IMG/VR virus record: IMGVR_UViG_3300037847_007825 | Coordinates: 7,177-31,737 of that record | Length of the DNA stretch: 24,561 bases | Origin: a virus | Strand: one strand, 5' to 3' | Part shown: one piece after another, positions 1 to 21,263 of the stretch | Position numbering within the stretch: position 1 is the first letter of the stretch | Layout: every line of letters starts with the position of its first letter | Position numbers and translations under genes: made by a program | The notes under the pieces: generated by a model | What the model was told of the DNA's origin: nothing | What the model saw: the letters and a program-made list of their open reading frames with translations, nothing else | Databases searched by the model: none

Positions 1-423
1 CATATTTGGAATTAATCCAAGTGGTGAAACCAAAATAAAAATAGAAGGATCATGTTTTTTAAATAATTTTTCTAAATGATCTAAATCACAAGATAAATCT
101 TCTAAATTACAATCACACATAAAAGTATTATAACCTAAAAGCATAGGTGAACTTACATCTGTAGCCCAACTAAGAGATGGAACTATAATATTTAAATTTC
201 TTATTTTATTACTATATTTTAAAGCAGCTAAAGTAAGTAATATAGCTGATGAGCCCGAGTTAACAAAAACAGAATATTTAGTACCTATTTTTTTAGCCCA
301 CTTTTTTTCTAGTTCCCAAGTTAATTCACCCTTAGTTAGTCTTGGTATCTCGTCTTGAGATAACCAGTTAACTAAAGAATTTATATCTTTTTTATCTATT
401 GTGTCACTAACTAATTTTATCAT
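1..423 (-). CDS. DegT/DnrJ/EryC1/StrS-family aminotransferase, N-terminal part (runs off left edge)
   Basis: The first 141 codons of an open frame starting at ATG 423 stay open to base 1. The translation contains VFVNSGSSAILLTLAAL (about residues 52-68), the PLP-phosphate-binding region of DegT-type sugar aminotransferases, then a VPSLSWATD stretch (81-89) where the family has its 'P.(T/S)(F/W)xAT' segment. The catalytic lysine lies beyond the window. Enzymes of this family transfer an amino group to a 4-keto or 3-keto nucleotide sugar, or are dehydratase relatives. The start overlaps the end of the GDP-fucose synthase gene by 17 nt, so it is the next gene of the same operon. It differs in sequence from the other DegT homologue at 21254-22453, so the phage has two. 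The substrate cannot be assigned. Family call fairly sure; role inferred from context. Confidence 0.8.
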   Translation of the reverse strand, partial: MIKLVSDTIDKKDINSLVNWLSQDEIPRLTKGELTWELEKKWAKKIGTKYSVFVNSGSSAILLTLAALKYSNKIRNLNIIVPSLSWATDVSSPMLLGYNTFMCDCNLEDLSCDLDHLEKLFKKHDPSIFILVSPLGLIPNM

Positions 424-1294
424 AAACTTGTTTTATACCTGTTTTTAAATCAGTAAATTTAAAATCAGGAAATATATTTCTTAATTTTTTATTACTTACA
501 TCCTTTCTAAATTGTCCGTCCAATTCAGGTTTAGAATAAATAATATTATATTTTTTGTTGGTAACCTCTAAAGCCATTTCAGCCATTTCATTTATGGAAT
601 AATTGAAATCCGGAGCAACATTAAAACTTTCTGTAATATTATTATCTATAACCTTTTTTATTATTTTAGCTAAATCACCAGCATACATAAATTGTCTTAG
701 TGGTTTACCTGTACCTAATAAATGTAATGAATTATCTTGGCTTTTCCTAATTTTATTTAAAAGAGCTGTGATGAAATGCATTTTATTTTCATTATGTAAG
801 TTATCATAATCACCATAAAGATTACAAGGTATTAGATAATTATATTCTGTATTGAATTGTTTATTATAAGCATCAATTTGAACAGCTAAACAGCGTTTAG
901 CATAACCATAACTAAAATTAGACGGTGGTGGAGGACCTATAAATAAATCTTCTTCAGTCATTGGATAATTATCCACTACACTAGGGTAAATACAAGTACT
1001 TAAAATACCAATAAATCTTTTTACATTATACTCCTTACATACTTTAACTATATTAGTGTTAATTAAAACATTATCATCAAAATAATCAGCTGGGTATTTT
1101 AGGTTATCTTGAATACCTCCTACTTTAGCTGCTAAATGGACAACAACATCAGGTGTATAAGAAGAAATCATCCACCTAACTTTTTTTATATCTGTAAGAT
1201 CACAATCTTTACTACTTAAATAAAAAGCATCAGGTAATATTTCTTGTAAATGTTTACCTACTAATCCACTTCCTCCTGTAACTACTATTCTCAT
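407..1294 (-). CDS. fcl: GDP-L-fucose synthase (GDP-4-keto-6-deoxymannose epimerase/reductase)
   Basis: This is an extended short-chain dehydrogenase of 295 aa; the bacterial enzyme is about 310-320 aa. It has the NADP-binding GGSGLVG at residues 7-13, the S-T-C triplet at 99-101 (counterpart of the Ser/Cys pair used in epimerisation), YGYAK at 129-133 with the catalytic Tyr and Lys, NLYG, a His in MHFITALL, and GTGKPLRQFMYAGDLA, which is typical of GDP-fucose synthases. The enzyme converts GDP-4-keto-6-deoxy-D-mannose to GDP-L-fucose in the cytoplasm. The GDP-mannose 4,6-dehydratase that would supply the substrate is not in this window. The start overlaps the carbamoyltransferase stop as ATGA (4 nt), suggesting coupled translation. 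Its product is the donor needed by the two fucosyltransferase domains encoded two genes upstream. A different 4-keto sugar reductase is possible but less likely. Confidence 0.88.
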   Translation of the reverse strand: MRIVVTGGSGLVGKHLQEILPDAFYLSSKDCDLTDIKKVRWMISSYTPDVVVHLAAKVGGIQDNLKYPADYFDDNVLINTNIVKVCKEYNVKRFIGILSTCIYPSVVDNYPMTEEDLFIGPPPPSNFSYGYAKRCLAVQIDAYNKQFNTEYNYLIPCNLYGDYDNLHNENKMHFITALLNKIRKSQDNSLHLLGTGKPLRQFMYAGDLAKIIKKVIDNNITESFNVAPDFNYSINEMAEMALEVTNKKYNIIYSKPELDGQFRKDVSNKKLRNIFPDFKFTDLKTGIKQVYDKIS

Positions 1295-2844
1295 TTTGTA
1301 AATAAATAATTTTCTATTATTAAATAATCTAATTCCGTATTTTCTAAAACATAAATAGCATCCTCTATAGTTGTTAAAATTGGTCTGCCCTTAATATTAA
1401 AAGAGGTGTTTACAATAACTGGAATTTCATCTGATTTATCTAGTTCACTTAAAATATTATAGAAAGTACTATGTTGATCCTTAGTTACTGTTTGTAATCT
1501 TGCAGTACCATCTTCGTGAGTTATAGTTTTTAATTGTTGTTTATATTGTTCTTTAACTTTAGGAGCGTAACTCATAAATTCAGATTCATAGGCATCATCA
1601 AAAAATTTATCTTTATCTTCTAACCTACATACTGGTGCAAATGGTCTAAACCATTCCCTAAATTTTACTTTTGCATTTAAGGTATCTTTCATGTTAGGGA
1701 AAGAGGGATCACAAATAATACTTCTATTACCTAATGCCCTAGGACCTATTTCTGAACAACCTTCTACTAGACCAATAATTTTTCCTTTCTTTAGTAAATC
1801 TACTATTTCTTGAGTACCTATTTTATGAGCTTGATATTTATCCTTATAGTATTCAAATTTATCTCTATCTAATAAATCAAATCCACTATAAACATTAACA
1901 TCTACATTAGGTTTATGAACTAAATATTGACCTAAAGATAAACCACAATCATTTGGATTAGGGGGTATATATAAGTTTTTATTTTTTTTATCTAATAATT
2001 TTTTAAATCTTTGATTAAATAAAACATTTAAAGCACAACCCCCAACTAAAATAAAATTATCATATTCATCAATATAATCTTTTAAAATTTCCAATACATA
2101 TTGCTCAAAAACAAATTGAGAAGTAGCAGCTAAATCATAACTTAATTGTCCTTTTAAAGAATTAAAACTTAAATCTAAACCAGTAACATTACCTAAAATA
2201 TCCAGTGATGAATGGGGACCATTATAATAGTTAGCCATAAACTCTAACCATTCATTTCTAATATTACCATATGCACATAAACCCATGACTTTACCTGCAT
2301 AAACTAATGAATCTTCATTTGAATCAGGACCCGGTTTAATTTCTGATATTGGGCACCCAATTTTACCATAGGCCGTACCTAAATTAATAGAAGGTACAGT
2401 TAATGGAATAATAGATTTATCTCCCTTAAATATTTTAGTAAATGATACTTCATTATAATCCTTTCCTCCTCCATCAATGGATAAAATTAAAGCTTTATTA
2501 AATCCCGAAAGATAATAACCACTAGCTGCATGGGCTAAATGGTGTCCACAAAGCTCAAATTTAGCATTTGGGAAATATTCTGTTAGGAGTTGTTGATCTA
2601 AACTAGATAATTCATTATATACTATTTTTTTTACTTCATAATTAATTTGAGATTTTATATAAGACAAAAATTTTCTTCTGTCTTTATCATTTGACCCCAA
2701 AGCTCTACCATCAAATCTTTCAGAAAACATAGCATATCTATTTCTAACAAACCTTTCATATTCTAATACTTTTACTTTATTATTAGAATCAAGAAATGTT
2801 ACTGATGCATCATGTGAACCGTATATGCTTAATATATTACTCAT
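1291..2844 (-). CDS. NodU/CmcH/TobZ-family O-carbamoyltransferase
   Basis: This 517-aa protein has both parts of the NodU family, which usually runs somewhat longer. The N-terminal Kae1-like domain starts with a GSHDAS motif (residues 9-14), has the metal-binding-type CGHHLAHA (99-106; H101, H102, H105) and a LSIDGGG phosphate loop (121-127). The C-terminal half carries GPRALGNRSI, FREWFRPFAPV and IVNTSFN. These enzymes use carbamoyl phosphate and ATP to carbamoylate a hydroxyl, usually on a sugar; NodU acts on Nod factors. Its stop overlaps the next start by 4 nt, and its own start overlaps the upstream fusion glycosyltransferase by 8 nt. Context points to decoration of the glycan built by this operon. 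Carbamoylation of a modified nucleobase in phage DNA is an alternative I cannot exclude. Family call strong, acceptor unknown. Confidence 0.87.
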   Translation of the reverse strand: MSNILSIYGSHDASVTFLDSNNKVKVLEYERFVRNRYAMFSERFDGRALGSNDKDRRKFLSYIKSQINYEVKKIVYNELSSLDQQLLTEYFPNAKFELCGHHLAHAASGYYLSGFNKALILSIDGGGKDYNEVSFTKIFKGDKSIIPLTVPSINLGTAYGKIGCPISEIKPGPDSNEDSLVYAGKVMGLCAYGNIRNEWLEFMANYYNGPHSSLDILGNVTGLDLSFNSLKGQLSYDLAATSQFVFEQYVLEILKDYIDEYDNFILVGGCALNVLFNQRFKKLLDKKNKNLYIPPNPNDCGLSLGQYLVHKPNVDVNVYSGFDLLDRDKFEYYKDKYQAHKIGTQEIVDLLKKGKIIGLVEGCSEIGPRALGNRSIICDPSFPNMKDTLNAKVKFREWFRPFAPVCRLEDKDKFFDDAYESEFMSYAPKVKEQYKQQLKTITHEDGTARLQTVTKDQHSTFYNILSELDKSDEIPVIVNTSFNIKGRPILTTIEDAIYVLENTELDYLIIENYLFTK

Positions 2845-5233
2845 TTATTATATTTTTATAAATCCAATCTTCTGTTACGTTATATTCTTTACTTTTTTCT
2901 AAATTATCTTTTATAGCATCCATTTTAGAATTATATAATTTATTATTTAAAGTAGGTAATATATCATTTAATTCATCTAATGTATTAAAAGTAATAATAC
3001 CATCCAAATTAAAATAGTTATCTAAATTTGGACAACCCCAATAAATTGGTATAGTTCCTACTGCTAAACAATCAATTAATTTTTCAGTAAAATAATTATC
3101 CGTTTTTGAATTTTCAATTACAATAGAGTATCTGTAATCCAATAAAGAATCTTCTTTAAAATCAATAGGATTAGAAGTACCTCTGCCAAATAAATCTACT
3201 TCATGTACATTATTAGCTACATTATGTCTTAATTGATGACCCTCAAGTGTATTTTTATCTGAGTAAATCATAGAAATGTTTTTTGATTTATCACTAATTC
3301 TAAAATTAGAATCTTTAATCCAGCATCCCCCAAAAGGTACTAATTTTGTTCTAGTAGGGTATTTATTTAAAAGTTCTTTATCATGAGTAAGAATAAATTC
3401 AAAATCGTCCATATAATCTTCAAATTGCTCATAACGTAGTGGGTAAACTTCTCTAGTTTCCATTAGCCAACCTATTTTTCTATCTGACGAAGTATTTTTA
3501 GCCGTTCCATTAGTTAGATATTCATCTGTAAATAAAGTAATACCTTGATATTCATTATTATCTCTTACAAACTTAACATATTTAGATATTTTATCATGTA
3601 CCGTAGAATATCTTCCATTAGGTTTTACTAAATGTCTACAAGCATTATCAAATAAATTTATTTCAATTTGGGGAACATTTTCTGTTAAACAGATCCAATC
3701 AGTAGGAAATAAATCTTGGGTTGAAAAATCCTTATAAACAGGACCAAACCATTTATCTGGGTAGATTACTTTTTTATTCTTATTTGGGTTAAGGTAACCT
3801 GCCCACCAACTAAATGTTGAATTAGCAATTACATTATGTTCACATTCAATCATCATATACAAATCTTCATAATCATTCTCATTTTGTATAAACTCAAATT
3901 GGTCACCTTTAAAATTTTCTTTACACCATTCTAAATCATCACTAAAAACTAAAAATTTATATCCTTTAAAATAATCAATAGCATTATTATAATAATCAAT
4001 ACTTAAATTATGGTGAAATTGAGATAAATTAATATAATCACCTCTTCTAACATGTAATGAAACATAACCAGCTCTTTGTTTATAACTAGAGGGTAGGAAT
4101 AATTTTGAAATATAATCTTTACAATTATCAAAGTATTTATAAGATTGATAATATCCAAATAATTGTACATCACTATTAGGAATTATTACATCTGGTTTAT
4201 AAGTAAAATTACTAACTTCTGTGTTTACTTTAGCTGCACCGGTTAAATCAATTTCTAGAAACTTAATATTTTTAAATAAATTATCTTTATATGTAATAGG
4301 AGGTTTATGTAAAGTTCCTATATGAGAATAATCAGTTACTATTTCAAAATTTCGTTTTTGAGTTAACCCAGCCGCCGCTGCAATTTGGAACATCATATTA
4401 CCTAATCCCCCAGCTAATATAGGTTGAATTTTTCTTATGGGGTCAGTAGAATATAGTGTTTTATAAGGTTCCTTAGCTCTAATTTCTGCCTCTTGTCCTT
4501 CGGGGTTTTCTATATCTTTGTTTTGTCTTTCTAAACCTCTTTTTACTATTTCAGGATCCTCATTATAAACATAAGTTGGGAAGTTTAATACACCAATTTT
4601 TTCTTTTGGACACATTTCTAAACAGAAAAAGGAAACAGCTAAATCCTCGGCATTATAATAATATTCACCTGTTTTACTCCAAATTAAATCTTCTTTTTTA
4701 ATTTTATTATATAAAAACCATCTAAAACTTCTTAAATGACTAGCTCTCCAAATATCTTTTCTATATAATTTTTTACTATGAACTTCTTCACTATAAACTG
4801 AATTTTGTGGGTGGGCCAATTTGCCAGAAGGATAACAATACATACCCCCATAAGTCATCCAACAATCAGTAGAATTATAATATTCATTTAACCTTTCAAA
4901 TACATTTTCATCATATAACCAATCATCACCATCAACAAATAAAATAATATCATCTTCATTATCCATAAAATTAATTATATGGTCTTCATTTGGGTTTACA
5001 TTATATCCTCTCTGTTTATTATTCTTCCAATTAAGCAAAGTCCAATTATCTAATTTATAGTCATTTATTATCTTTTGAATAATATTAGGCGTATTATCTG
5101 TAGATGCATCATTAATATATAACACCTCATAATTAGTATAAGTTTGTTTAAGTATACTAGCTACATTAGCTTCTACCCATTTTTCATTATTATATGAAGG
5201 AATTACTACTTTAAATTTATTTTTTCTTTCCAT
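2837..5233 (-). CDS. Three-domain glycosyltransferase: GT2 + GT11 (alpha-1,2-fucosyltransferase-like) + GT10 (alpha-1,3-fucosyltransferase-like)
   Basis: One uninterrupted 798-codon frame encodes three glycosyltransferase domains. Residues 1-230 are a GT2 domain: VVIPSYNNEKWV near the start, NDASTDNT at 41-48 and the metal-binding VDGDD at 100-104. Residues about 270-515 are GT11-like: GGLGNMMFQ (275-283), HVRRGDY (394-400, the GDP-fucose-binding motif of alpha-1,2/1,6-fucosyltransferases) and NSTFSWWAGYL (471-481). Residues about 525-795 are GT10-like: VPFGGCW (632-638), then the signature YSIVIENSKTDNYFTEK (702-718) and GTIPIYWG (726-733). Each domain is near full length with its own motifs intact, so all three could be active. 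GDP-fucose synthase lies two genes downstream. The gene overlaps its upstream neighbour by 28 nt. Exact linkages and acceptors are inferred from family names only. Confidence 0.88.
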   Translation of the reverse strand: MERKNKFKVVIPSYNNEKWVEANVASILKQTYTNYEVLYINDASTDNTPNIIQKIINDYKLDNWTLLNWKNNKQRGYNVNPNEDHIINFMDNEDDIILFVDGDDWLYDENVFERLNEYYNSTDCWMTYGGMYCYPSGKLAHPQNSVYSEEVHSKKLYRKDIWRASHLRSFRWFLYNKIKKEDLIWSKTGEYYYNAEDLAVSFFCLEMCPKEKIGVLNFPTYVYNEDPEIVKRGLERQNKDIENPEGQEAEIRAKEPYKTLYSTDPIRKIQPILAGGLGNMMFQIAAAAGLTQKRNFEIVTDYSHIGTLHKPPITYKDNLFKNIKFLEIDLTGAAKVNTEVSNFTYKPDVIIPNSDVQLFGYYQSYKYFDNCKDYISKLFLPSSYKQRAGYVSLHVRRGDYINLSQFHHNLSIDYYNNAIDYFKGYKFLVFSDDLEWCKENFKGDQFEFIQNENDYEDLYMMIECEHNVIANSTFSWWAGYLNPNKNKKVIYPDKWFGPVYKDFSTQDLFPTDWICLTENVPQIEINLFDNACRHLVKPNGRYSTVHDKISKYVKFVRDNNEYQGITLFTDEYLTNGTAKNTSSDRKIGWLMETREVYPLRYEQFEDYMDDFEFILTHDKELLNKYPTRTKLVPFGGCWIKDSNFRISDKSKNISMIYSDKNTLEGHQLRHNVANNVHEVDLFGRGTSNPIDFKEDSLLDYRYSIVIENSKTDNYFTEKLIDCLAVGTIPIYWGCPNLDNYFNLDGIITFNTLDELNDILPTLNNKLYNSKMDAIKDNLEKSKEYNVTEDWIYKNIINE

Positions 5234-6183
5234 ACTTTTATATCATAGTGTTCTCTATATAGTTTTTTAGATTGATTACTACATTTATTATAAAAATCTT
5301 TGTCGCTTTTAAGTCTATAAGCTAATTGTCTAGCCTTTTCTACATCATCCACTGCTACTGATAATTCAGGGTGACAATACCTTTGAGTGTCTACTTTTAT
5401 ATTACCAATACAAGGAATGCCAAAATAAGCACAATTCAAACTAAAAGTACCAGCAGCAACAGTAGGCATTAAATGTACAGCGTATTTGAACGTAGATAAC
5501 ACACTCATCCAACCCGCCCATGGTAGTCGTTGAAGATGATTTAAATCAGGGATTTTAGATTCATTAGGTCTTTTAGCATGAGAATCCTGAGTCCACTTTG
5601 CAACTCCAAAAACATCTGCAACAACATAACTTTGAAAACCACCATACCATCTTGCAAAATTACCTCCTATAATTACTTTTTCTTCTACTACAGGGGTAAT
5701 ATGTTTAATTAATTCTTCTATAAGTAAGGTACTAATAACATTTACTTTTTTTTCGGGAAATAAACCTTTATAAAATCTAGTATCTATTTCATTATGCGCA
5801 AATATACTATCACATTTAGATAAAAAATTATAAAAATTGAACTGATCAAATATTTCATAATCATTAAAAAACCATGAAGGACCCTCTTGAATATAGTGAA
5901 TTTTTTTATTATTATTTTTAAGGGTATCAATAAAATTAGACTGTAATAAATTAGAGGCCGGGTTAGGTTTTTCAGATAATTTTACACCTACTGCATTTAA
6001 AAATGTTTCACCTTTTGGGAATATAATAAATACATGGTCTTGATTTTTAACATTTTGATAATCAAAAAGAGTATGATGATTTGCCTCTAAGGCATACATC
6101 CAAGCAAACTCCGTTCTCATATTAGGATGATTTAAAGGTACTTTACCTTCAAACCCCATTTCAGTTAAAAATGTTATATTCAT
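5206..6183 (-). CDS. Putative GT-B-fold glycosyltransferase
   Basis: A 325-aa protein without a clean diagnostic motif. The C-terminal half looks like the donor-binding lobe of a GT-B enzyme: a VIIGGNFARWYGG strand-loop (about 171-183), a segment LMPTVAAGTF followed by NCAYFGIPCIGN, which resembles the 'A.E.G.P.I.' part of GT4-type enzymes without the usual EX7E pair, and an ending QLAYRLKSDKDFYNKCSNQSKKLYREHYD typical of the closing helices of such proteins. There are no membrane segments or signal peptide. It starts at ATG 6183, just after the stop of a 46-aa ORF, and its stop (TAG followed directly by TAA) overlaps the triple glycosyltransferase. Its position among sugar genes supports a glycan role. 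It could be a degenerate, non-catalytic partner. Family uncertain. Confidence 0.55.
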   Translation of the reverse strand: MNITFLTEMGFEGKVPLNHPNMRTEFAWMYALEANHHTLFDYQNVKNQDHVFIIFPKGETFLNAVGVKLSEKPNPASNLLQSNFIDTLKNNNKKIHYIQEGPSWFFNDYEIFDQFNFYNFLSKCDSIFAHNEIDTRFYKGLFPEKKVNVISTLLIEELIKHITPVVEEKVIIGGNFARWYGGFQSYVVADVFGVAKWTQDSHAKRPNESKIPDLNHLQRLPWAGWMSVLSTFKYAVHLMPTVAAGTFSLNCAYFGIPCIGNIKVDTQRYCHPELSVAVDDVEKARQLAYRLKSDKDFYNKCSNQSKKLYREHYDIKVWKEKINLK

Positions 6184-6325: not shown

Positions 6326-6949
6326 TTAAAGTGTATTATAATAATTATTTTGTTTTTCTTGTTTATCTATAGTTTTATGATGATATAAAGCTAAATCCTC
6401 CATAGGAGGTAGGGCTGTAAATATTTTATGTCCCTCTAATTTTTCATGAACTTTATTTTTCCATTTAATTTCTGGTTTGTTTTTCCAAATACGCCATTGA
6501 TAATCAGGCCAATTAACCCAACTTCTTTCATTTAACTTCCAACCCCATTTTTGAACATGATCTTCAGTTAACCCTTCTACTGTGTTTACTCTTGGAACTA
6601 GATATACTTCACTAGATGGATTTGATTCTAAAATTTTAGGTAAACTTTTTATTAGTAGTCTATTTGGAACCTCATCTGCATCTATTTGAAATATATAATC
6701 ACCAGAACATAGATCAGTTAGTTTATTTTTCCAATCTGCAAAATGATTATGAAAATCACCTTTATGCCACATAAACTGACCATTAACAGAATGACTTCTT
6801 AAAAACTCCTCAATTCCTTCATCACCATTTTTATGATCATAAAGAATAATAATTTCATCTTCTGTTCTTTTATGATCTAATAAAAATAGAACTAATTTTT
6901 GTATCTCAACAAATTCATTACAAACTGTAATTGCATAACTTATTTTCAT
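6326..6949 (-). CDS. GT2-family glycosyltransferase (GT-A fold)
   Basis: A 207-aa protein that begins with YAITVCNE (residues 5-12), the nucleotide-sugar-binding strand of GT2 enzymes. It has the metal-binding D-A-D within FQIDADEVP at 87-95. A later WKNKVHEKLEG segment and a histidine pair near the C-terminus resemble short GT2 proteins often annotated 'glycosyltransferase family 2' beside polysaccharide genes. It is shorter than typical GT2 enzymes of 250-300 aa and has no membrane segment, so it is probably soluble and cytoplasmic. Its start overlaps the epimerase stop as ATGA. Donor and acceptor unknown. Confidence 0.78.
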   Translation of the reverse strand: MKISYAITVCNEFVEIQKLVLFLLDHKRTEDEIIILYDHKNGDEGIEEFLRSHSVNGQFMWHKGDFHNHFADWKNKLTDLCSGDYIFQIDADEVPNRLLIKSLPKILESNPSSEVYLVPRVNTVEGLTEDHVQKWGWKLNERSWVNWPDYQWRIWKNKPEIKWKNKVHEKLEGHKIFTALPPMEDLALYHHKTIDKQEKQNNYYNTL

Positions 6950-7794
6950 AAACTTTGTATATATTCTTCTAATCTATCTTTTGGTTCCCAATTTAGTAAA
7001 TCTAATGCATCGTCTCTTTCTCTTAAAGTAACTCTATAGTTTCCTTTTTGATCTGGAATGTAAACACAATCAACATTGAATTTATCTTTAAACATCTGGT
7101 AGACTTCATTAATAGAATGGTTATTACCAGTACCTAATTCCCACGCATCATCTTGTTTATGATTAGTATTACTAATTTTAATCAACCCATCTACTATGTC
7201 ATCAACATGAGTAAAATCTCTTCTTTGTTCTCCATCTCCAACAATAGTAATTGGTTGGTTATCTCTAACTTGCTTTCTCCATATACCAATTACAGCAGCC
7301 CAATCACCATCTACAACTTCATAAGGACCATAAACATTATAAAAACGAGCAATTTCAATATCCATATCATAAGTAAGTTTATACATTTTACAAATCTCTT
7401 CACCTAAATACTTACAAGTAGAATATGGTGACTGATACGGATTATGCCATTTAGAAGATGAACCAGCATATACTATTTTTGCTCTAATTGTTCTAGCAAA
7501 TTCACAAACTCTTTGTGTACCAATAGTATTAACGTCAAATGTTCTTGTTGGATTAGTAAATGAAGGTTGAATTCTAGATAATCCTGCTAAGTGATAAATT
7601 AATTCAAATTTTTGATCAGTTAATTCCATCACATCACAAACATCACCTGTCATATACTCACAACCATCAACATGGTTACTACGGGTTCCAACTGAGTAAT
7701 TATCCAAAGAAGAAACCTCATGTCCCTCCTTAATTAATCTTTTAATTAAATTAGTTCCTATAAACCCTGCTCCTCCTGTAACTAGTATTTTCAT
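6946..7794 (-). CDS. NAD(P)-dependent NDP-sugar epimerase/dehydratase (extended SDR)
   Basis: A 282-aa extended short-chain dehydrogenase. Evidence: the GGAGFIG dinucleotide loop at 7-13, YHLAG at 67-71, a Ser-rich YAGSSS strand at 109-114, the catalytic Y-S-T-C-K at 124-128, ARFYNVYGP, and the substrate-binding region VGDGEQRRDFTHVDD. This pattern is that of UDP-glucose 4-epimerases, UDP-glucuronate decarboxylases and NDP-hexose dehydratases. The protein is shorter than GDP-mannose 4,6-dehydratase (about 345-370 aa) and lacks its look, so I would not use it to fill that gap in the fucose route. One base separates it from the zinc-ribbon gene upstream. Substrate unresolved. Confidence 0.82.
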   Translation of the reverse strand: MKILVTGGAGFIGTNLIKRLIKEGHEVSSLDNYSVGTRSNHVDGCEYMTGDVCDVMELTDQKFELIYHLAGLSRIQPSFTNPTRTFDVNTIGTQRVCEFARTIRAKIVYAGSSSKWHNPYQSPYSTCKYLGEEICKMYKLTYDMDIEIARFYNVYGPYEVVDGDWAAVIGIWRKQVRDNQPITIVGDGEQRRDFTHVDDIVDGLIKISNTNHKQDDAWELGTGNNHSINEVYQMFKDKFNVDCVYIPDQKGNYRVTLRERDDALDLLNWEPKDRLEEYIQSL

Positions 7795-7795
7795 A

Positions 7796-8239
7796 TTATT
7801 CTGGTATTACTCCAATATAAGACAATGCTTCCATGAAATCTTTTTCCATAAAATATTTTACTGTACTCATATCAGATTTATATTTTTCTCCTTTATATTT
7901 TTCTTTTTCTTCTTCTGGCACTAAAATTGATTTTACAGCACCCCATCTCCAATTACCTCTTCCATTTCCAGTAGCAAATATCATACCCTTATCTTTAACG
8001 TTAATATGAGATGGCATCCAAATTTTACCATTATCTTCTTCCTCATCCATTAATACTTTATAAAGTTCAGGTAATAATTCCCACTGTTGATTAAAAAATT
8101 CGCTTCCTTTTTTCATTAAAGAATTAGATTGAAAACCACAACCATAACATAATTCTATAGAAATATCTTTACTAATTTCCTGTCTATAACAAGCATCTGA
8201 TCCACATCGGGTACATTCTTTTAATTCATCAAAATTCAT
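7796..8239 (-). CDS. Hypothetical zinc-ribbon protein
   Basis: A 147-aa protein with an N-terminal zinc-ribbon-like cysteine set: C9-x2-C12, C17, then C31-x2-C34. The rest is hydrophilic and acidic or basic with no other motif I recognise; it includes ATGNGRGNWRWGAV and a KEKYKGEKYKSDM stretch. Proteins of this look are common as unnamed genes in marine T4-like phages, to my recollection. It sits between a GT4 gene (1-nt overlap, TAATG) and the epimerase gene, so it is cotranscribed with glycan genes. No function can be assigned. Confidence 0.72.
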   Translation of the reverse strand: MNFDELKECTRCGSDACYRQEISKDISIELCYGCGFQSNSLMKKGSEFFNQQWELLPELYKVLMDEEEDNGKIWMPSHINVKDKGMIFATGNGRGNWRWGAVKSILVPEEEKEKYKGEKYKSDMSTVKYFMEKDFMEALSYIGVIPE

Positions 8240-9534
8240 TATTTAACTTTTTTTAAATTAGGTAAATTTAGTTCAGGTAATTTTATTTCAACTTGTTGTG
8301 CAAATTGTGGAACATTAGTACTAAGTTTAATATTAATAAATTCCTTCATTTTATCCCAACTAAAATTTGTTTTAGCGTAATGTTTTTGTTTTTTACCTTT
8401 AACTACATATTTTTTATAGTTTTTAAACACATCTTTAAAAGTAGATAAAGCATGTTGATAACTTACTTGAAACCATTTAGCTTCTTTAAGTAACCAATCA
8501 TTAGCAGCACTAGGATGAACATTTTCTAAATTACCAGGTAATAAAGTAGTATACTCAGGATTTAAAAAATCAACATGACCAGACCAACCTGATGCTATTA
8601 TAGGTTTACCTGTCATACTAAACTCTAATAATGGTCTTCCAAAACCTTCACCTTTTGTTAGACTAACCATAGCCTTAACTTTAGGATGATTATATAATTC
8701 ATTCATTTCTGAGTCATCAAATTCTCCATTAAGTAAATAAATATTAGGTAAATCTGTAGTTTTAAATGATTCTTTAAGTTGTTTAATTTTATCCAAAATA
8801 GCATCCCTACTTATGTAAGAAGCTACACCAACTGAACATTTTAATATTAAAGCAGGTTTAGATCCCCGTTTATCCTTAAATGCCTCATAGAAATTTTTAA
8901 CTAATGTTCCTACATTTTTTCTATCATGACCAACTTCTCCAGCCATCCAATGTCCAACAAATAGAAAACAAAAGGATTCTTTAATGTCATCTAAATCAAT
9001 AGTTTTAATTTCTGATGGAGATATAGGTTTATATTTAGTTACATCAACACCTTCAAATAAAACTTCTATAGGTTTTTGTATCTTTACTTGTCCAACAGAC
9101 TGTTGTGTTCGTGGATCTTTTTGATCAAATACCATAGATTCAAGAGTTCTTTTTGAAAAATTAGATGACACCCAATTTATATCCATTCTATTTAATCCTT
9201 GAATCCATTCCGCTTTACATGCAGTAGCTTCAATTCCCGCAGTAAGACCTATATTATATTTTCCTACAGGTTGGAACTCATTAGGTATTGTTATTTGCAT
9301 CCAAATATCAGGTTGTTGTTTTTGCCAATCTTGACTAGCTAAATGACTATATAAAAAATTCCACTCAGGATGATCTTTACAGAAATTCCAAGATGTTTCA
9401 CCCCATCTTTGGGATAATAACTCAACTTTATATTTATCTAATTCAATAATAGCCTTAACTACATCTCTTGCTCTAGCCCCATAACCCGAATAAGTGTCAA
9501 AGGGGCATGATATTACAAATCTTGGTTTATTCAT
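8239..9534 (-). CDS. GT4-family (group 1) glycosyltransferase
   Basis: A 431-aa GT-B enzyme. The N-terminal lobe has SGYGARARDV (16-25), the glycine-rich acceptor-side loop of GT4 proteins. The C-terminal lobe begins near residue 188 with CFLFVGHWM and has the EX7E pair E296/E304 within GEGFGRPLLEF, followed by GKPIIASGWSGHVDFL, which binds the nucleotide-sugar donor. Length is normal for the family. The start overlaps the preceding gene by one nucleotide (TAATG). With the next gene upstream it forms a tandem GT4 pair; their sequences differ clearly, so they are not a recent duplication. Donor and acceptor unknown. Confidence 0.87.
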   Translation of the reverse strand: MNKPRFVISCPFDTYSGYGARARDVVKAIIELDKYKVELLSQRWGETSWNFCKDHPEWNFLYSHLASQDWQKQQPDIWMQITIPNEFQPVGKYNIGLTAGIEATACKAEWIQGLNRMDINWVSSNFSKRTLESMVFDQKDPRTQQSVGQVKIQKPIEVLFEGVDVTKYKPISPSEIKTIDLDDIKESFCFLFVGHWMAGEVGHDRKNVGTLVKNFYEAFKDKRGSKPALILKCSVGVASYISRDAILDKIKQLKESFKTTDLPNIYLLNGEFDDSEMNELYNHPKVKAMVSLTKGEGFGRPLLEFSMTGKPIIASGWSGHVDFLNPEYTTLLPGNLENVHPSAANDWLLKEAKWFQVSYQHALSTFKDVFKNYKKYVVKGKKQKHYAKTNFSWDKMKEFINIKLSTNVPQFAQQVEIKLPELNLPNLKKVK

Positions 9535-10976
9535 TAATATAATATTTTATGATTTAAAAATTTACCTTTATAATTATTTGCATTAACTAATTCATATTTT
9601 TCTCTTGGTTTCCAAGTATCAAATAATTCCTTAAATGCCTCTATTACTCTATTACCTTGATGTTCAGAAGTAAATCCGGCTTCATCACTAATAGCCCATT
9701 CTCTACCTTTTAATCCTCTTCTTTTTAATTCTTTCCTTCCTAATTTATAACATTCCTTTATTCTATCAGCTGCATCTTCCCATCTACATCTATCATCAAA
9801 AATATAAGGTGTAGGAGGGGATCCCTGAATAGATCTAGAAGTAGGATAAACTGGAAAAGCCCACTCTCCATGCTTTTTAAAAGTTCCTCTATGATTAGAA
9901 GGTATATTAGCATCTGGAGTAAACCAATTACCATCACCATCTACAAATCTCATTTGATCCTGCATTCCACCTGTAACATTAGCAATAATTGGAGTACCTG
10001 CTAAAATAGCTTCAGTATTTGCTAATCCCCAACCTTCATTTGATGTTAGTAATATTTGTACATCTGCTATGTTATATAAATGATTCAAATATTTTTCCTC
10101 TATTTTACCAAAAATAAACTTAACATTATTTTTATATTTCTCATCAAACAAATATTCTTTTACTTTAGGTAAATCAGTACCTGGGTCTGTAACAGGTTCC
10201 GTTTTCATTACTAGGAAACAATCTTTAGCTTCATCTTCAGGTAAAGAATCTAGAAATGCTCTAAAGGCTAACATTGTATCTGGTACTTGTTTCCTTCTTA
10301 TATTTCTAGAATTATAAAATACAACAAATTTAGGTTTTTGTCCTTTAAATAAATTTTGAATAGATAATTGATAATCTTTATCATTTTCATCTAATGGGAA
10401 ATAAATATTTTCATCTTTTCCATGTGGAATATACTTAAATAATCTATTACCCTCATGACCCTTAAGTACTAGTTTATTAATATTAACAGTTTGTTTAGAT
10501 ATTCCCATTAATAAATCACAAGATTCATAATAAGGTCTATTATACATTGGTGCTGGGTAGTCATCCCATATATTTAAGTATGTAATAGGAATATTTTTAC
10601 GTATTTCTTGTTCCAGATTAAACACATGAATGAAATATCTAGGATCAGTAAATAAAAATATGGCATCAGGTTTCTCAATATTAATTATTTGCCTAATAAA
10701 TTGAGGATGCCCATACCCATCTACTGGGTATACAATTACGGATGAATCATTAATACCTGCTAAATTATTAGTATCTGGAGATAAATCCAATTTTTTACCC
10801 TTTTCAGGATGTTTTATTGCCCCACCTAATTGTACCCAATTAAAATGGTGAGCTGTATGGACTACTATTTCTTTTGCTACAGTTGCAACACCAGAATGTA
10901 CTCTAATATCATCACAAATTAATAGTATTTTTTTCCTTTTCTCTTTTGGTATGTAAGGGAACTTCTTATTCTTCAT
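9534..10976 (-). CDS. GT4-family (group 1) glycosyltransferase
   Basis: A 480-aa GT-B enzyme. An N-terminal KILLICDD strand and HSGVATVAKE loop (27-36) precede a GT4 donor lobe: FVVFYNSRNIRRKQ (217-230), EKYLNHLYNIADVQILLTS, and the EX7E pair E314/E322 in NEGWGLANTE, then ILAGTPIIANVTGGMQD. These are the usual GT4 landmarks in order. It starts at ATG 10976, overlapping the end of the ribbon-helix-helix-like gene by 11 nt, which makes it the second gene of the glycan operon. No membrane segment is seen. Substrate unknown. Confidence 0.87.
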   Translation of the reverse strand: MKNKKFPYIPKEKRKKILLICDDIRVHSGVATVAKEIVVHTAHHFNWVQLGGAIKHPEKGKKLDLSPDTNNLAGINDSSVIVYPVDGYGHPQFIRQIINIEKPDAIFLFTDPRYFIHVFNLEQEIRKNIPITYLNIWDDYPAPMYNRPYYESCDLLMGISKQTVNINKLVLKGHEGNRLFKYIPHGKDENIYFPLDENDKDYQLSIQNLFKGQKPKFVVFYNSRNIRRKQVPDTMLAFRAFLDSLPEDEAKDCFLVMKTEPVTDPGTDLPKVKEYLFDEKYKNNVKFIFGKIEEKYLNHLYNIADVQILLTSNEGWGLANTEAILAGTPIIANVTGGMQDQMRFVDGDGNWFTPDANIPSNHRGTFKKHGEWAFPVYPTSRSIQGSPPTPYIFDDRCRWEDAADRIKECYKLGRKELKRRGLKGREWAISDEAGFTSEHQGNRVIEAFKELFDTWKPREKYELVNANNYKGKFLNHKILY

Positions 10977-14654: not shown

Positions 14655-16274
14655 TTACATCATCCCCATCATTGATGGATCTATTTGGGGTTGTTTTTCT
14701 TCCTCTAACTCATTAACTACTGTACATTCTGTAAGTAAAACTGTACCAGCTACTGAAGCAGCATTTTCTAATGCTAATCTAGCTACTTTTGTTGGATCTA
14801 TAATACCTGCTTCTTTCATATCAACTGTATTATCGGTTTTTATATCAAATCCTAACCAACCATCATTACCAGAATTAATCATTCCATCAGCAATAATTTG
14901 TCCCTGAACTGCATCATAACCAGCATTAACTAAAATTTGATTAAATGGTTTAGCACAAGCTCTTTTTACTATTTGAGCACCCGTAGTTTTAGTCTCTAAA
15001 CCTGAAGATGCATATAGTAGTGCAGTTCCACCTCCTGGAATTATCCCTTCTTCAATAGCAGCTTTTGTAGCATGTAGTGCATCATCAACTCTATCTTTCT
15101 TTTCCTTCATTTCAGTTTCTGTGTTTCCACCAACATGAATAATAGCAACACCACCTACAAACTTAGCTAATCTTTCTTGTAGTTTTTCTATTTCAAATGG
15201 TGTAGTAGCCTTATCAATTTGTTTTTGAAGTTCTTCAATACGTGCTTCAATTCTATCAATATCTCCTTTACCATCAACAATAGTGGTTTGTTCTTTTTCT
15301 ACTGTAACAGTTCTAGCTTCACCAAACCATTCCCAACTAAACTTATCTAACTTCATTCCCTTTTGTTTATCAAAAACAACACCACCAGTAGTAATAGCAA
15401 TATCTTCCAAAGCTAATTTTCTTCTATCTCCAAAATCTGGGGCTTTAACTGCTACTACTTTCATAGTTCCTCTCATTTTATTTACAATAAGAGTTGCTAA
15501 TGCTTCATTATCTATATCTTCAGCTACAATAACAAGAGATTTAGCTTGTGCAGATACAGCTTCTAGAATAGGTAATAATTCTTTTACTTGTGTAATTTTT
15601 TGGTCTGCAAGAAGAATGAGGGGGTTTTCTAATGTGGCAGTCATTGTATTATTGTCTGTAACAAAATAAGGTGATTTATAACCTCTTCCAAACTGTAACC
15701 CTTCAACAGTTTCAAGATAGGTTTCACCTGTACGAGATTCTTCTATATGAACAACCCCCTCCATTCCTACTTTATCTATTGCAGTGGCAATTAATTTGCC
15801 AACTTCTTTATCATTATTAGCAGATATAGTTGCAATTTGTTCTAATTGCTCTTCACCTGTAATTTCCTCTGATATATTATTTCTTAAATTATCTACTACT
15901 TTATTTACTGTAGTATCAATATCTCTTTTTATTTGAACTGCATTTTCATTATTATTTAAAGCACTTAAACCTGCTTTAATCATCTCTCTAGCTAATAAAG
16001 TAGATGTTGTTGTACCATCACCTGCTTTTTCAGCTGTTTTAATTGCAGCTTGTTTTACTAGTTGTATTCCTAATTCTTGCTCGGGATCCTTTAAATTTAT
16101 AGATTTAGCTACTGTTACCCCATCTTTTGTAGATTGAGGTACTCCCTGATTATTAGCTATAACTACATTTCTTCCATTAGGACCTAAAGTTGAAACTACA
16201 GCATCAGCTAATGTATCAATACCTTTAACTAAATTAGTTCTGGCATCTGTTCCAAATTGTACTTGTTTATTCAT
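14655..16274 (-). CDS. groEL: Phage-encoded GroEL chaperonin (Hsp60)
   Basis: A full-length 539-aa group I chaperonin; E. coli GroEL is 548 aa. ATP-site residues are intact: TLGPNGRNV near 29-37, D51 (counterpart of D52), DGTTT at 86-90, D398 in RVDDALHATK and GGG at 414-416. The apical substrate-binding positions Y199, Y203, F204, L234, L237, L259, I263 and V264 are hydrophobic as in E. coli. It lacks the classical GGM-repeat tail and ends in DPSMMGMM. It should form a folding chamber with the GroES encoded immediately upstream (8-nt overlap). Full domain structure and conserved sites argue for a working chaperonin. Phage-encoded GroEL is known from a minority of phages. Confidence 0.96.
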   Translation of the reverse strand: MNKQVQFGTDARTNLVKGIDTLADAVVSTLGPNGRNVVIANNQGVPQSTKDGVTVAKSINLKDPEQELGIQLVKQAAIKTAEKAGDGTTTSTLLAREMIKAGLSALNNNENAVQIKRDIDTTVNKVVDNLRNNISEEITGEEQLEQIATISANNDKEVGKLIATAIDKVGMEGVVHIEESRTGETYLETVEGLQFGRGYKSPYFVTDNNTMTATLENPLILLADQKITQVKELLPILEAVSAQAKSLVIVAEDIDNEALATLIVNKMRGTMKVVAVKAPDFGDRRKLALEDIAITTGGVVFDKQKGMKLDKFSWEWFGEARTVTVEKEQTTIVDGKGDIDRIEARIEELQKQIDKATTPFEIEKLQERLAKFVGGVAIIHVGGNTETEMKEKKDRVDDALHATKAAIEEGIIPGGGTALLYASSGLETKTTGAQIVKRACAKPFNQILVNAGYDAVQGQIIADGMINSGNDGWLGFDIKTDNTVDMKEAGIIDPTKVARLALENAASVAGTVLLTECTVVNELEEEKQPQIDPSMMGMM

Positions 16275-16644
16275 TAGATATGTCTTTTAAATTTTCAATT
16301 TCTTCTTCACTTATATTCTGTAAAGTATCACTTAATGCATCATTAAATGACTCTTTTTTACTTATTTTTGCTAAAACCTGATTTTCAGGGCCTACATAAT
16401 ATTCTTCCCCATCATAAGGAAGTTTTGTAAATCCCATAGTGGGTAAAACAACTTTATCTCCTACTTTTAGTTTAGTAGGAATAAAATCTCCTGTAATAGT
16501 TGGTTTTCCAGGACCTACAGCCATAACTGTACCCATTTCATTTTTTTCTTTTCCTAAATCAGGTACGATTATATTACCATAAGTAGTTTCTTCCGCCTCA
16601 AAGGGCTTAACTATAACAGCGTCAAACAGTGCTTCTAATTCCAT
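16267..16644 (-). CDS. groES: Phage-encoded GroES co-chaperonin with C-terminal extension
   Basis: A 125-aa protein; typical GroES is about 95-100 aa. The beta-barrel core starts ALFDAVIVKP (5-14), the mobile loop covers about 16-34 with the GroEL-binding hydrophobic triplet I25-I26-V27, and the roof and core continue through MGTVMAVGPGK and VGDKVVLPTMG to VLAKI (90-94). About 30 residues after this are an acidic, Ser/Glu-rich extension absent from host GroES. It caps GroEL. Order groES-groEL is as in bacteria. Its start overlaps the preceding small gene by 23 nt. T4 gp31 is a functional analogue but much more diverged; this one is a recognisable GroES. Confidence 0.93.
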   Translation of the reverse strand: MELEALFDAVIVKPFEAEETTYGNIIVPDLGKEKNEMGTVMAVGPGKPTITGDFIPTKLKVGDKVVLPTMGFTKLPYDGEEYYVGPENQVLAKISKKESFNDALSDTLQNISEEEIENLKDISNE

Positions 16645-16980: not shown

Positions 16981-17508
16981 ATTGAGCTAGGACACGCTTT
17001 TTTAATAAAAAATACTACTTAATTTTAATGGACTTTGGTTTTGCTTCATCAGCCAAAGGTATAAAAATATCTAATAATCCATTTGCTAAAGATGCATCAG
17101 TTTTTGATAAATCAAATTTAGGTGCAATTTTATATCTTAAGTCAAAAGATTTTTTAGATAAACCACTATGGATAGTTCCTTCATGGAATTTTTCATCCTT
17201 TGGTTTTTTATAACTTATTTTTAAAATATCCCCTTCAATATCAAGAATAACGTCTTTTTTAGTTAACCCAGTACAGGCAACTTCAAAATAAAGACCTTTA
17301 TCATCATAGTAAATATTAAGTGGATGTGGTTGTTTTGAATTTAAAGCTGGTGCGAATTGCGATTCAGCGTTGAAGTGATTCCTAAATAGGATGTCGAAAG
17401 GACTTATATGCCTTTCCAAAATTTCTAATGTACTCATATCATTTTTATTTGTGAGCGCCTAAGCTAACTCGATTAAACATAAAACATAACTTGTGCCCTA
17501 GCTACAAT
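16981..17508. repeat. Inverted repeat pair flanking the hsp20 gene
   Basis: The left arm ATTGAGCTAGGACAC (16981-16995) and the right arm GTGCCCTAGCTACAAT (17493-17508) are reverse complements over about 15 bp, with one mismatch (a G-U pair in RNA) and one bulged base. They bracket hsp20 and lie outside the coding region. A weaker, direct-repeat relative of the right arm is at 17449-17468 (TTGTGAGCGCCTAAGCTAAC). Possible roles: pairing between the 5' and 3' untranslated parts of the hsp20 message, a protein-binding site, or a scar of cassette insertion. Confidence 0.4.
17015..17437 (-). CDS. hsp20: Small heat-shock protein, Hsp20/alpha-crystallin family
   Basis: A 140-aa protein. It has a variable N-terminus (1-35) and an alpha-crystallin domain from about 38 to 130, including YFEVACTGLTKKDV, LKISYKK and the signature ASLANGLLDIFIP (115-127). 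The C-terminal I-x-I motif is at 137-139. It should bind unfolding proteins without ATP as oligomers and pass them to GroEL-type machines. Hsp20 genes are common in T4-like cyanophages. It has its own leader gap of 107 bp with promoter-like sequence and is bracketed by an inverted repeat. The first 30 codons and the leader contain more CG-containing codons than neighbouring genes. No Shine-Dalgarno sequence precedes ATG 17437. Confidence 0.93.
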   Translation of the reverse strand: MSTLEILERHISPFDILFRNHFNAESQFAPALNSKQPHPLNIYYDDKGLYFEVACTGLTKKDVILDIEGDILKISYKKPKDEKFHEGTIHSGLSKKSFDLRYKIAPKFDLSKTDASLANGLLDIFIPLADEAKPKSIKIK

Positions 17509-18603: not shown

Positions 18604-19539
18604 TTATATTTCAAACGATTTTAAAGCGTTTACATAAGGATTTAAATTAAGAGACCAACCTAAATCACTAAAAAATCCCTCTAATTTATTTAATAAAATT
18701 GAGTCAAATACTTTTTGTCTGTCAGCATAAGTATTTAAAAAATCTATTATTTTATCTGGCATTTCATAATCAAAAAATGCTAGTGCCTCTATTTTATATG
18801 GGTTATCCTTTAAATAAATCCATTTTACTTTATCTGCCATTGTAATTAGATTATATTTTCTATCTAATTGCCATAATCTAAGTAAATCATTATAACGAAT
18901 AGCAGCACGAACAGGAGCAGGAGCACCTTTTAATATTTCAGTAAACATTTCACCTGCACGGGCACTTTTACCACTATATTTTTCTAATTTTTTTACAGCA
19001 GTTGGATTACCTAATTTAGCTAAAGGAATAGTACCATCTAGTATTTGTTTTTTAAATACTTTAATTTGAGATATAATACTTTCTTTACCTTCACCTTTTA
19101 ATACTTGTTGTAAAATATCATTAAAGAAATCTCCTAATATAGGAGGAAAATTTGCTTTCATAAACTCTAAACCTTTAATATCTAGAGTTTCCTTAGCAAT
19201 ACCTTCTTGTTTAGTAATCCATTGAGCGTATCTTCTAGTAGCTCTAAAATAAGCAGAACGAATAACACATTCTGTTTTCATTTCAAGTCTATGTTTAGGA
19301 ACATTAAAACATTCCTTAGATAAAACATTATAATGATCAGTAATAATATCCTGATATTCAATGGCAACTTTTTCTAATAATTGATCTTTTTTCTTATCAT
19401 TAAAAGATTCAAAATTAGGATATAAATGAAGAAGTAAAGGTTCGGCATTAAAGTAATTTGAATCTGTGTCTACATAGGCACAAAAATTTGTATCTCCTTC
19501 ATCGCAAATAAACCAAGGTGTATCTTCTAAATGTTTCAT
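18604..19539 (-). CDS. 43: DNA polymerase family B, C-terminal part (motif C and thumb), split gene
   Basis: A 311-aa protein that supplies what the other polymerase gene lacks. Motif C is YVDTDS at residues 22-27 with the catalytic Asp pair D24/D26. A TRRYA segment at 101-105 corresponds to the K-K-R-Y region of T4 gp43, and IKGLEFMKANFPP (121-133) to its MGMETQ..STP region, followed by a helical thumb. Together with the 592-aa N-terminal part it makes 903 aa, close to T4 gp43 (898 aa), so nothing major is missing. No exonuclease or motif A/B is present, so it cannot work alone. ATG 19539 follows the TAG of the 87-aa gene immediately and in the same frame. The two halves must assemble in trans. 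Confidence 0.92.
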   Translation of the reverse strand: MKHLEDTPWFICDEGDTNFCAYVDTDSNYFNAEPLLLHLYPNFESFNDKKKDQLLEKVAIEYQDIITDHYNVLSKECFNVPKHRLEMKTECVIRSAYFRATRRYAQWITKQEGIAKETLDIKGLEFMKANFPPILGDFFNDILQQVLKGEGKESIISQIKVFKKQILDGTIPLAKLGNPTAVKKLEKYSGKSARAGEMFTEILKGAPAPVRAAIRYNDLLRLWQLDRKYNLITMADKVKWIYLKDNPYKIEALAFFDYEMPDKIIDFLNTYADRQKVFDSILLNKLEGFFSDLGWSLNLNPYVNALKSFEI

Positions 19540-19807: not shown

Positions 19808-20680
19808 TTATTTTTCTCCGTAATAAGTTGTTTTTGTTTTATAACATTCCATAGCATCAATATACGATAAAGGTTTATGATTATCAAGAAATTCTCCATC
19901 CCAAGATTCAAACCAATTATAACTTTTATCCGTTTCTGTTAAAAAGGCAGGATAAATTAAATCTTTTTCATTCCACCAAAAGATTCTCCATATGTCATTT
20001 CCATCTTCTTCTGTCCAGGCAAAATTAACTCTATAATCATCTCTAATATCATATATATTTAATCCAATTTCTAGAAAAGCAAAACTAAAACGTATTTGAG
20101 CTTCCTCTCCTGAAACATAGTCAGATTCTTTACTATGTGGTAACATACCAAACTTATCCCAAATCTTTTTTAGATTTTTACTAGATGCAATTCCTGTAGA
20201 TAACCCAGCATATTTTCTAAAACCATTATGTCTATGGGGTTCTCTTAAAAAAGGACATAAATAACCACAATCTGAATAGGAATTATGTTTATTAATTAAA
20301 TATTGATCCCAATTATGTTGAACAAAAAAATAATCATCCTCATTAAAGATATAATAATCATAATTTAATTGATACTTTCCAAATACATCAGACCAAGCGC
20401 CATAACTTATACCCTTATTTTCTCTTATGATTATTTCTACTTCTGTATCTTTTATTTTCTTTGGAGTAATTTTATAAACTTCAGTTAAATAAGAGTAATG
20501 ATCTATATCTATATTAAAATTAAATATAATTTTATCTAAACTATGTTTAACTTCTTCTAAATGTTTTATTTGGGTTTTTAATAAGTAAAATTTATCTTCC
20601 CTACAGGACTCTAACATTTTTCTTCTTTCGCCTAAGTAAAAGTTAACTACATAACAACTAGTTGGAATAAATTTATTCAT
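19808..20680 (-). CDS. Putative GT-A-fold glycosyltransferase
   Basis: A 290-aa protein. RENKGISYGAWSDV (86-99) resembles the GT2 segment before the metal site, and IFNEDDYFF (111-119) with E114-D115-D116 occupies the DXD position. Later, LSTGIASSKNLKKIW and SGEEAQIRF fit the acceptor half of GT-A enzymes. The usual N-terminal nucleotide-binding strand is less clear. No membrane segment. It lies between the formyltransferase (8-nt overlap) and the 87-aa gene, inside the interruption of gene 43. It probably transfers the amino sugar made by the two preceding enzymes, but this is inference from position. Confidence 0.62.
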   Translation of the reverse strand: MNKFIPTSCYVVNFYLGERRKMLESCREDKFYLLKTQIKHLEEVKHSLDKIIFNFNIDIDHYSYLTEVYKITPKKIKDTEVEIIIRENKGISYGAWSDVFGKYQLNYDYYIFNEDDYFFVQHNWDQYLINKHNSYSDCGYLCPFLREPHRHNGFRKYAGLSTGIASSKNLKKIWDKFGMLPHSKESDYVSGEEAQIRFSFAFLEIGLNIYDIRDDYRVNFAWTEEDGNDIWRIFWWNEKDLIYPAFLTETDKSYNWFESWDGEFLDNHKPLSYIDAMECYKTKTTYYGEK

Positions 20681-21263
20681 ATTTGTTTCTTAATTTTGTT
20701 AAAGTTAGTTTATATAAGTCATTATCACTTTCTTTTACTTTACCTCTTTTAAATACTCTAGGAGGTAATTTAGTACAGGAATTAATTTCTTTAACTGTCA
20801 TAGTTTCTAATAATTTTAAGCTATTTAAAACAAATAAAGGAAATATGTTAACCATTTTATCATACAATGTTATCATAGTATCTTCTTTAGTTACTGGATA
20901 AGTTATTTTACTAATAATATTACCATAATCTAATTCTTTACCCATTTTATGAAAAGTTAATCCTTGTTCTACAGATTTTTCTTGTAAAGTGTGATATAAA
21001 ATATCTGTACCGCCCCACATAGGTAACAAACCCGTATGAACATTAAATGCATTTTTTATATTAATTAATTTTTTATCATACTGTAAAGAAAGTTTAATAT
21101 CATGCTCTATATTATCTTTTACTATAGGTAAATTAACTTTACCTTTTATTGTAGGTGATGTTGAAGGAATATGGCCTACTAAATTATAATAATCTTTTAA
21201 TAAATTAACTGTTATAGCAGTTAAATAAGAAGAACCATAAATTAAAATATTTTTTATTTCCAT
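20673..21263 (-). CDS. Formyltransferase-fold protein, probably sugar N-formyltransferase
   Basis: A 196-aa formyltransferase-fold protein. NVHTGLLPMWGG (74-85) gives the catalytic Asn74 and His76, GLTFHKM (101-107) is the second conserved element, and Asp112 in ELDYGNI completes the Asn-His-Asp set. These enzymes use 10-formyl-tetrahydrofolate. It is shorter than methionyl-tRNA formyltransferase and lacks its C-terminal tRNA-binding domain. It overlaps the end of a sugar aminotransferase gene by 10 nt. That pairing is the usual one for N-formylated amino sugars such as Qui4NFo or N-formylperosamine. PurN-like activity is less likely given the context. Confidence 0.85.
   Translation of the reverse strand: MEIKNILIYGSSYLTAITVNLLKDYYNLVGHIPSTSPTIKGKVNLPIVKDNIEHDIKLSLQYDKKLINIKNAFNVHTGLLPMWGGTDILYHTLQEKSVEQGLTFHKMGKELDYGNIISKITYPVTKEDTMITLYDKMVNIFPLFVLNSLKLLETMTVKEINSCTKLPPRVFKRGKVKESDNDLYKLTLTKLRNKYE

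Follow-up and report, generated by a model that had tools for sequence, protein, structure and literature searches.

The stretch of DNA analysed here, called the window throughout (24,561 nucleotides; positions 7,177 to 31,737 of virus record IMGVR_UViG_3300037847_007825), carries on its minus strand a gene for a glycosyltransferase of 798 amino acids (2837..5233) in which GT2, GT11 and GT10 domains are joined. Downstream of this fusion gene lie, in order, genes for a NodU/NolO-like carbamoyltransferase, a homologue of GDP-L-fucose synthase (GFS) and GDP-L-colitose synthase (ColC), a DegT-fold protein and GDP-mannose 4,6-dehydratase (GMD). The fusion is read from an ATG at 5233 to 2837 with zero internal stops, and its domains follow one another in the order GT2, GT11, GT10, all with Pfam scores above the curated cut-offs and with limits at about residues 1-260, 266-520 and 522-798, respectively. 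The GT2 domain, of GT-A fold (4454..5233), matches PF00535 at residues 9-161 (67.3 bits, cut-off 23.3, E 2e-18); the GT11 domain (3674..4438) matches PF01531 at residues 385-515 (91.8 bits, cut-off 23.9, E 6e-26), a match that PHROG 2644, a glycosyltransferase family, widens to residues 275-515 (E 4e-52); the GT10 domain (2840..3670) matches PF00852 at residues 647-762 (37.0 bits, cut-off 23.9, E 3e-9). The highest mean hydropathy over 19-residue stretches is 1.44, below transmembrane-like level, which is best explained by a soluble protein, cytoplasmic in the infected cell.

Relatives were gathered by two scans of viral contigs and with domain profiles built in this analysis (contigs and loci are cited by their L numbers). 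IMG/VR contigs hold 12 distinct full-length tri-domain proteins, 46-100% identical, plus one partial protein (L023). Signature residues of the window protein are VDGDD in GT2 (residues 100-104; DxDD at 4922-4936), HVRRGDY (residues 394-400; 4034-4054) and NSTFSWW (residues 471-477; 3803-3823) in GT11, and ENSKTDNYFTEK in GT10 (residues 707-718; 3080-3115). Across the 12 proteins D.DD, HxRRGxY, SDD, NSTFSWW, ExR, GHxLRH, EN, TEK and GTxPxYWG are invariant, including D101, D103 and D104 of the DxD-type metal site and E707, N708, Y714, T716, E717 and K718 of the GT10 donor-site motif EN...Y.TEK, which is accompanied by a GTIPIYWG motif. In HVRRGDY the D/N site varies, and in the GT10 motif some inner positions do; the other motif positions are nearly all invariant. 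A profile comparison of the GT10 domain with Helicobacter pylori FucT (PDB 2nzw) gave E 1e-16 across the ENxxxxYxTEK region.

The AlphaFold2 model of the whole protein has a mean predicted local distance difference test (pLDDT) score of 89.8. The GT11 domain was also folded alone (mean pLDDT 93.3), since the PDB list for the whole model was filled by GT2 matches. With VIA-align, the GT2 domain superimposes on the second glycosyltransferase domain of chondroitin polymerase K4CP (Z 20.9, root mean square deviation 2.7, 226 residues). The GT11 model has the fold of the alpha2-, alpha6- and protein O-fucosyltransferases: its 43 best PDB entries are all GDP-fucose transferases (Z 12.5 to 10.6), led by NodZ (12.5), AtFUT1 (12.4), POFUT1 and FUT8 (12.2 each); heptosyltransferases come next at Z 10.4, so that the ranking is informative, the margin is not, and fold alone separates weakly. 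Solved relatives of the GT11 domain were also sought by sequence, with none above noise. GT10 residues 522-798 match FUT9 (Z 15.7, root mean square deviation 4.1).

In none of 50,697 annotated phage records does any place cover 80% of the tri-domain protein, and in the 12 bacterial loci that the same alignment retrieved the domains occur singly. In 296 genomes from the phylum of one Bacteroidales metagenome-assembled genome, GT11 or GT10 matches lie in frames of about 280-460 amino acids, none spanning the query; with one phylum sampled and at most three candidates scored per genome, these genomes argue only weakly for absence. No tri-domain protein appears in these loci and genomes, and they lend no support to a bacterial origin of the fusion. 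The original prediction, made from the sequence of the window, had proposed a single 798-residue frame joining the three domains, and both the intact open reading frame and the Pfam scores confirm it. All four motifs that it had quoted are present, the profiles place both the GT11 and the GT10 region, the domain limits lie within a few residues of those it had drawn (270-515 and 525-795), the GDP-sugar signatures are intact, with no sign of a lost GDP-fucose pocket, and confident models and further copies in viral metagenomes were obtained. Its remark that no phage enzyme of this combination had been described agrees with the annotated records.

The relatives form a series of separate and fused genes. 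GT2 and GT11 are separate adjoining genes in L053, L056, L057, L058 and L061; they are fused, with GT10 in a separate nearby gene, in L031-L035; and GT2-GT10 proteins of about 550 amino acids lacking GT11 are common (L036-L051). Two relatives have four domains: L021:5001-8234 encodes 1078 amino acids with a C-terminal region weakly matching GT29 sialyltransferases (E 1e-4, 22.2 bits, cut-off 23), and L030 carries about 236 extra N-terminal residues. In L054:3795-6482 and L055:4056-6458 GT2 is joined to a domain of GT6, the family of the blood-group A/B transferases (E 2e-39 and 1e-38, respectively), beside a GT11 gene, and L055 has a methyltransferase domain in front. Given the GT2-GT6 fusions beside GT11 and the tri-domain relative with a weakly GT29-like region, Lewis/H-type branching may still occur.

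The GT2 domains of L008, L025 and L030 are 31-36% identical to that of the window, against 54-66% for GT11 and 56-77% for GT10. Between L008 and L025, identity is about 56% up to the vicinity of residue 260 and about 90% beyond it, with a synonymous divergence (pS) of 0.49 in GT2 and only 0.17 in GT11; the jump and the drop at this border therefore indicate that the GT2 module was exchanged. A module swap is claimed only for L008, L025 and L030. GT2 recombination was also considered for the window and L004 and for L020-L024, where GT2 identity is high, and was dropped, synonymous divergence in GT2 not being clearly lower. The ratio of nonsynonymous to synonymous divergence (dN/dS) is 0.04-0.15 in each domain for close pairs among the window, L001 and L003, and by this comparison of sequences the fusion is under purifying selection.

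Three pathway genes accompany the fusion. GMD scores 393 bits to TIGR01472. The DegT-fold gene enters the window with its N-terminal 141 amino acids (1..423, minus strand) and runs out of it; the whole gene is seen at L013:6436-7599. Its best PDB match is the 3-dehydrase ColD (193 bits, perosamine synthase 89), and the gene and every close relative spanning the site have His at the position of ColD H188, where aminotransferases have Lys; in contrast, the aminotransferase at window 21254-22453 keeps its catalytic Lys. E1-type [2Fe-2S] cysteines were looked for in this gene and are absent, as they are in ColD by the published criteria that separate ColD from aminotransferases and E1 (PMC8987622). 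A perosamine aminotransferase is ruled out by the His replacement and the scores, and an E1-type dehydrase by the lack of Fe-S cysteines; the dehydrases of L032, L042, L050 and L060 have clustered cysteines and look E1-type. It is the adjacent GMD gene that points to GDP-4-keto-6-deoxymannose as the substrate of this ColD homologue. The GFS/ColC homologue (407..1294, minus strand) keeps the Cys, YxxxK and His active-site positions and scores by BLAST 143 bits to ColC of Escherichia coli O55 (cluster taken from its RefSeq record), 134 to E. coli Fcl and 135 to cyanophage GFS, with 32% identity to ColC and 29% to Fcl. On the GFS equivalog model NF047922 (cut-off 500 bits) both it (177.9) and the cyanophage GFS (473.6) fall below the cut-off.

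GMD, the ColD-type dehydrase and the GFS/ColC homologue occur together in nearly every close relative with a long enough contig. In Synechococcus phage ACG-2014f_Syn7803US26, GMD, GFS, a ColD-type dehydrase annotated as an aminotransferase and GT11 are four consecutive genes. The cyanophage gene L105:8968-10161 (NC_047714.1 gp211), annotated as an aminotransferase, has an FGHHMT motif and no E1-type cysteines, and looks ColD-type. Colitose is a rare dideoxy sugar, a close cousin of fucose. Because the cluster holds GMD, a GFS/ColC homologue and a ColD-type gene with the His and without Fe-S cysteines, GDP-L-colitose (3-deoxyfucose) is the probable donor, by itself or together with GDP-fucose. 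The original prediction had both GT11 and GT10 add fucose; the family assignments stand, whereas fucose as the identity of both sugars is put in doubt by the ColD-type gene, which with GMD and the GFS/ColC homologue points to GDP-L-colitose. Family GT11 includes, besides alpha-1,2-fucosyltransferases, the alpha-1,2-colitosyltransferase WbgN, which accepts GDP-colitose and GDP-fucose (PMC11987014, PMC12723683).

The fusion belongs to a run of overlapping sugar genes on the minus strand, an arrangement that suggests an operon. The carbamoyltransferase gene (1291..2844, minus strand; PF16861 5e-62, PHROG 1601 1e-122) shares 8 bases with the 3' end of the fusion gene and stands beside the fusion only in L001, L002, L003 and L010. 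Immediately ahead of the fusion, and sharing 28 bases with it, is a 325-amino-acid gene (5206..6183, minus strand) kept in relatives; it has no Pfam or PHROG match, and by its context may be glycosyltransferase-like. Further along the minus strand are a small second GT2-type glycosyltransferase (6326..6949; PF00535 8e-6), an NAD-dependent sugar epimerase/dehydratase (6946..7794; PF01370 3e-46) and two GT4-like glycosyltransferases (8239..9534, PF00534 2e-5, just under the cut-off, PHROG 2170 4e-19; 9534..10976, PF00534 2e-11, PHROG 2170 3e-22). No flippase, polymerase or initiating phosphoglycosyltransferase is among the annotated genes, no search having been aimed at these families.

The source record, a virus contig of 31,737 bases, has genes for a T4-type DNA polymerase, clamp loader, GroEL, GroES and Hsp20; its assignment as T4-like rests on the polymerase (phrog_262, 1e-109) and the clamp loader (phrog_168, 2e-76). 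GroEL, GroES and Hsp20 homologues are at window 14655-16644 and 17015-17437. A split DNA polymerase gene lies at 18604-19539 and 22467-24245, with about 2.9 kb between its parts; these cover phrog_262 positions 14-568 (N-terminal part) and 565-842 (C-terminal part), and the split falls just before a motif read as YVDTDS. Between the parts (19808-22453) are sugar genes, namely an aminotransferase that retains its catalytic Lys, a gene resembling sugar formyltransferases and one weakly glycosyltransferase-like gene, a set as for an N-formylated amino sugar. In L013, small genes at 2259-4326 and 4323-5465 resemble, by eye, the halves of a transketolase-type enzyme and adjoin a gene resembling dTDP-glucose 4,6-dehydratases and another 3-dehydrase-like gene that lacks Fe-S cysteines; this group possibly serves a branched deoxysugar.

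The reading that we favour, with moderate confidence, is a tri-functional enzyme in which GT2 adds one sugar to a growing glycan, after which GT11 and GT10 each attach a 6-deoxy-L-sugar taken from a GDP-linked donor, so that one polypeptide carries out three steps. Donors would be made by the phage from host GDP-mannose: GMD would give GDP-4-keto-6-deoxymannose, the ColD-type 3-dehydrase would take off the 3-hydroxyl, and the GFS/ColC homologue would epimerise and reduce the product to GDP-L-colitose; on intermediate unprocessed by ColD, the same homologue could give GDP-L-fucose. All three domains are very likely active, and we hold with similarly high confidence that GT11 and GT10 use GDP-linked 6-deoxy-L-sugars. 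That at least one of these two transfers colitose we put only slightly above an even chance, and that the residue added by GT2 is the one capped by GT11 somewhat below it. Sequential action is inferred because of the fusion series, the order in which the Toxoplasma/Dictyostelium enzyme PgtA acts and the proposal made for the chlorovirus protein PBCV-1 A111/114R (PMC6939170, PMC7826918). The targets reported for phage glycosyltransferases are virion proteins, DNA and the host surface (PMC12619734); the product here would most likely decorate the virion or the host surface.

Several points weigh against this reading. The fucosyltransferase WrtF is among the closest folds to the GT2 domain (Z 20.1, tied with K4CP), and a galactose or N-acetylglucosamine role for GT2 therefore cannot be assumed; since L008, L025 and L030 have a distant GT2 in place of this one, the GT2 sugar may also differ between phages. 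The best PDB match of the GFS/ColC homologue is human GFS (206 bits by phmmer, against 143 by BLAST for O55 ColC), its residues do not separate GFS from ColC activity, and the ColD product could be consumed by a different transferase in the cluster. The separate GT10 gene of L031-L035 means, further, that the fusion is not required. That the three domains do not act in sequence on one glycan at all, and are fused only for equal expression or joint localisation, draws on the same separate GT10 genes, on the GT2-GT10 fusions without GT11 and on the recombination of modules at a domain border. The same families are, however, repeatedly adjoining or fused in the same order, the usual sign of consecutive steps, and PgtA acts, and A111/114R is proposed to act, sequentially; we regard this explanation as improbable. 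That the fusion arose by chance or misassembly, or is a decayed gene, might be suspected from its metagenomic origin and from the ColD-like gene nearby, in which four codons are undefined. The fusion occurs, however, in a dozen divergent contigs, with low dN/dS and a confident full-length model; its presence in many independent contigs therefore rules out a chance frame or joined assembly, and the likelihood of any artefact is negligible.

Two other accounts differ from a colitose-based product in the sugars transferred, and each seems to us unlikely, if a little less so than non-sequential action. GT11 and GT10 could both fucosylate a backbone sugar added by GT2, giving the Lewis-Y- or H-type difucosylated product first suggested. 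The family assignments fit this, as do the presence of GMD with a GFS homologue, the GT2 relatives joined to GT6 beside a GT11 gene, and phage S-SRM01, which has separate GT11, GT10-like, GMD and GFS genes and no annotated ColD-type dehydrase in a 26-kb stretch. A conserved ColD-type 3-dehydrase between GFS/ColC and GMD would, however, divert the common intermediate to colitose, and family membership does not reveal linkage, GT11 also holding a colitosyltransferase (PMC11987014). One domain could instead transfer colitose and the other fucose, the GFS/ColC homologue acting both before and after ColD. Each contig yielded only a single full-length homologue, which adjoins both GMD and ColD, and GFS and ColC share active-site residues, as such a mixed product would have it; yet donor promiscuity, as in WbgN, which takes both sugars, blurs the assignment of a donor to either domain. 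Beyond the favoured tri-functional reading, we would venture, as a speculation with the odds clearly against it, that undescribed, widespread aquatic T4-like phages make GDP-L-colitose and that their recombining multidomain glycosyltransferases, with GT11, GT10, GT6 or GT29-like partners of GT2, build Lewis/blood-group-like glycans with colitose for fucose on the virion or cell.

Multidomain viral glycosyltransferases are already known, as in PBCV-1 A111/114R. Searches of annotated records and open-licence papers turned up no phage GT2-GT11-GT10 arrangement, no exchange of its modules and no tie between it and a colitose pathway, nor any published description of such a phage fusion. If the tri-functional reading is true, phages hold a full route from GDP-mannose to a colitose glycan, with three transfers on one polypeptide, and autonomous viral glycosylation, known from chloroviruses, extends to tailed phages with deoxysugars typical of O-antigens. 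Glycan synthesis would then gain a tri-functional enzyme ready for use, the aminotransferase or hypothetical-protein labels now given to phage ColD-type dehydrases would have to be corrected, and what phage glycan clusters modify could be tested directly.

Among known systems, PBCV-1 A111/114R (compared by its published description, PMC7826918) is likewise viral, with about 860 amino acids and three glycosyltransferase domains of about 300 amino acids each, a C-terminal domain proposed as a fucosyltransferase and a proposed role in building several residues of one glycan; it differs in belonging to a eukaryotic algal virus and in its first two domains, for which galactosyl- and xylosyltransferase activities have been proposed. 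PgtA of Toxoplasma/Dictyostelium (PMC6939170) is a cytoplasmic GT2 galactosyltransferase joined to an alpha-1,2-fucosyltransferase (GT2 and GT74, a beta1,3-galactosyltransferase/alpha1,2-fucosyltransferase on Skp1) and also acts sequentially, but is eukaryotic and has two domains, GT74 in place of GT11 and no GT10. WbgN of E. coli O55 is a GT11 enzyme like the middle domain (28% identity, 96 bits), from a cluster with GMD, ColD and ColC, whereas it is a single-domain bacterial O-antigen enzyme (PMC11987014, PMC12723683). The cyanophages S-SRM01 and ACG-2014f_Syn7803US26 are T4-like, with GMD, GFS and GT11 genes, but all as separate genes; in S-SRM01, the nearest phage record, one methyltransferase gene lies between the GT11 and GT10-like genes, and in ACG-2014f the ColD-type dehydrase adjoins GT11. 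Giant-virus GT2/GT11-like proteins (Bodo saltans virus A0A2H4UUT1; Terrestrivirus A0A3G4ZNB7) are the top viral-model fold matches and align over more than one domain, but have about 490 amino acids and at most two domains, their content being read from name, length and alignment span. The GT10 enzymes H. pylori FucT (2nzw) and human FUT9 have no other glycosyltransferase domains fused and the phage domain is remote from them in sequence, but they share with it the fold and the ENxxxxYxTEK donor-site motif.

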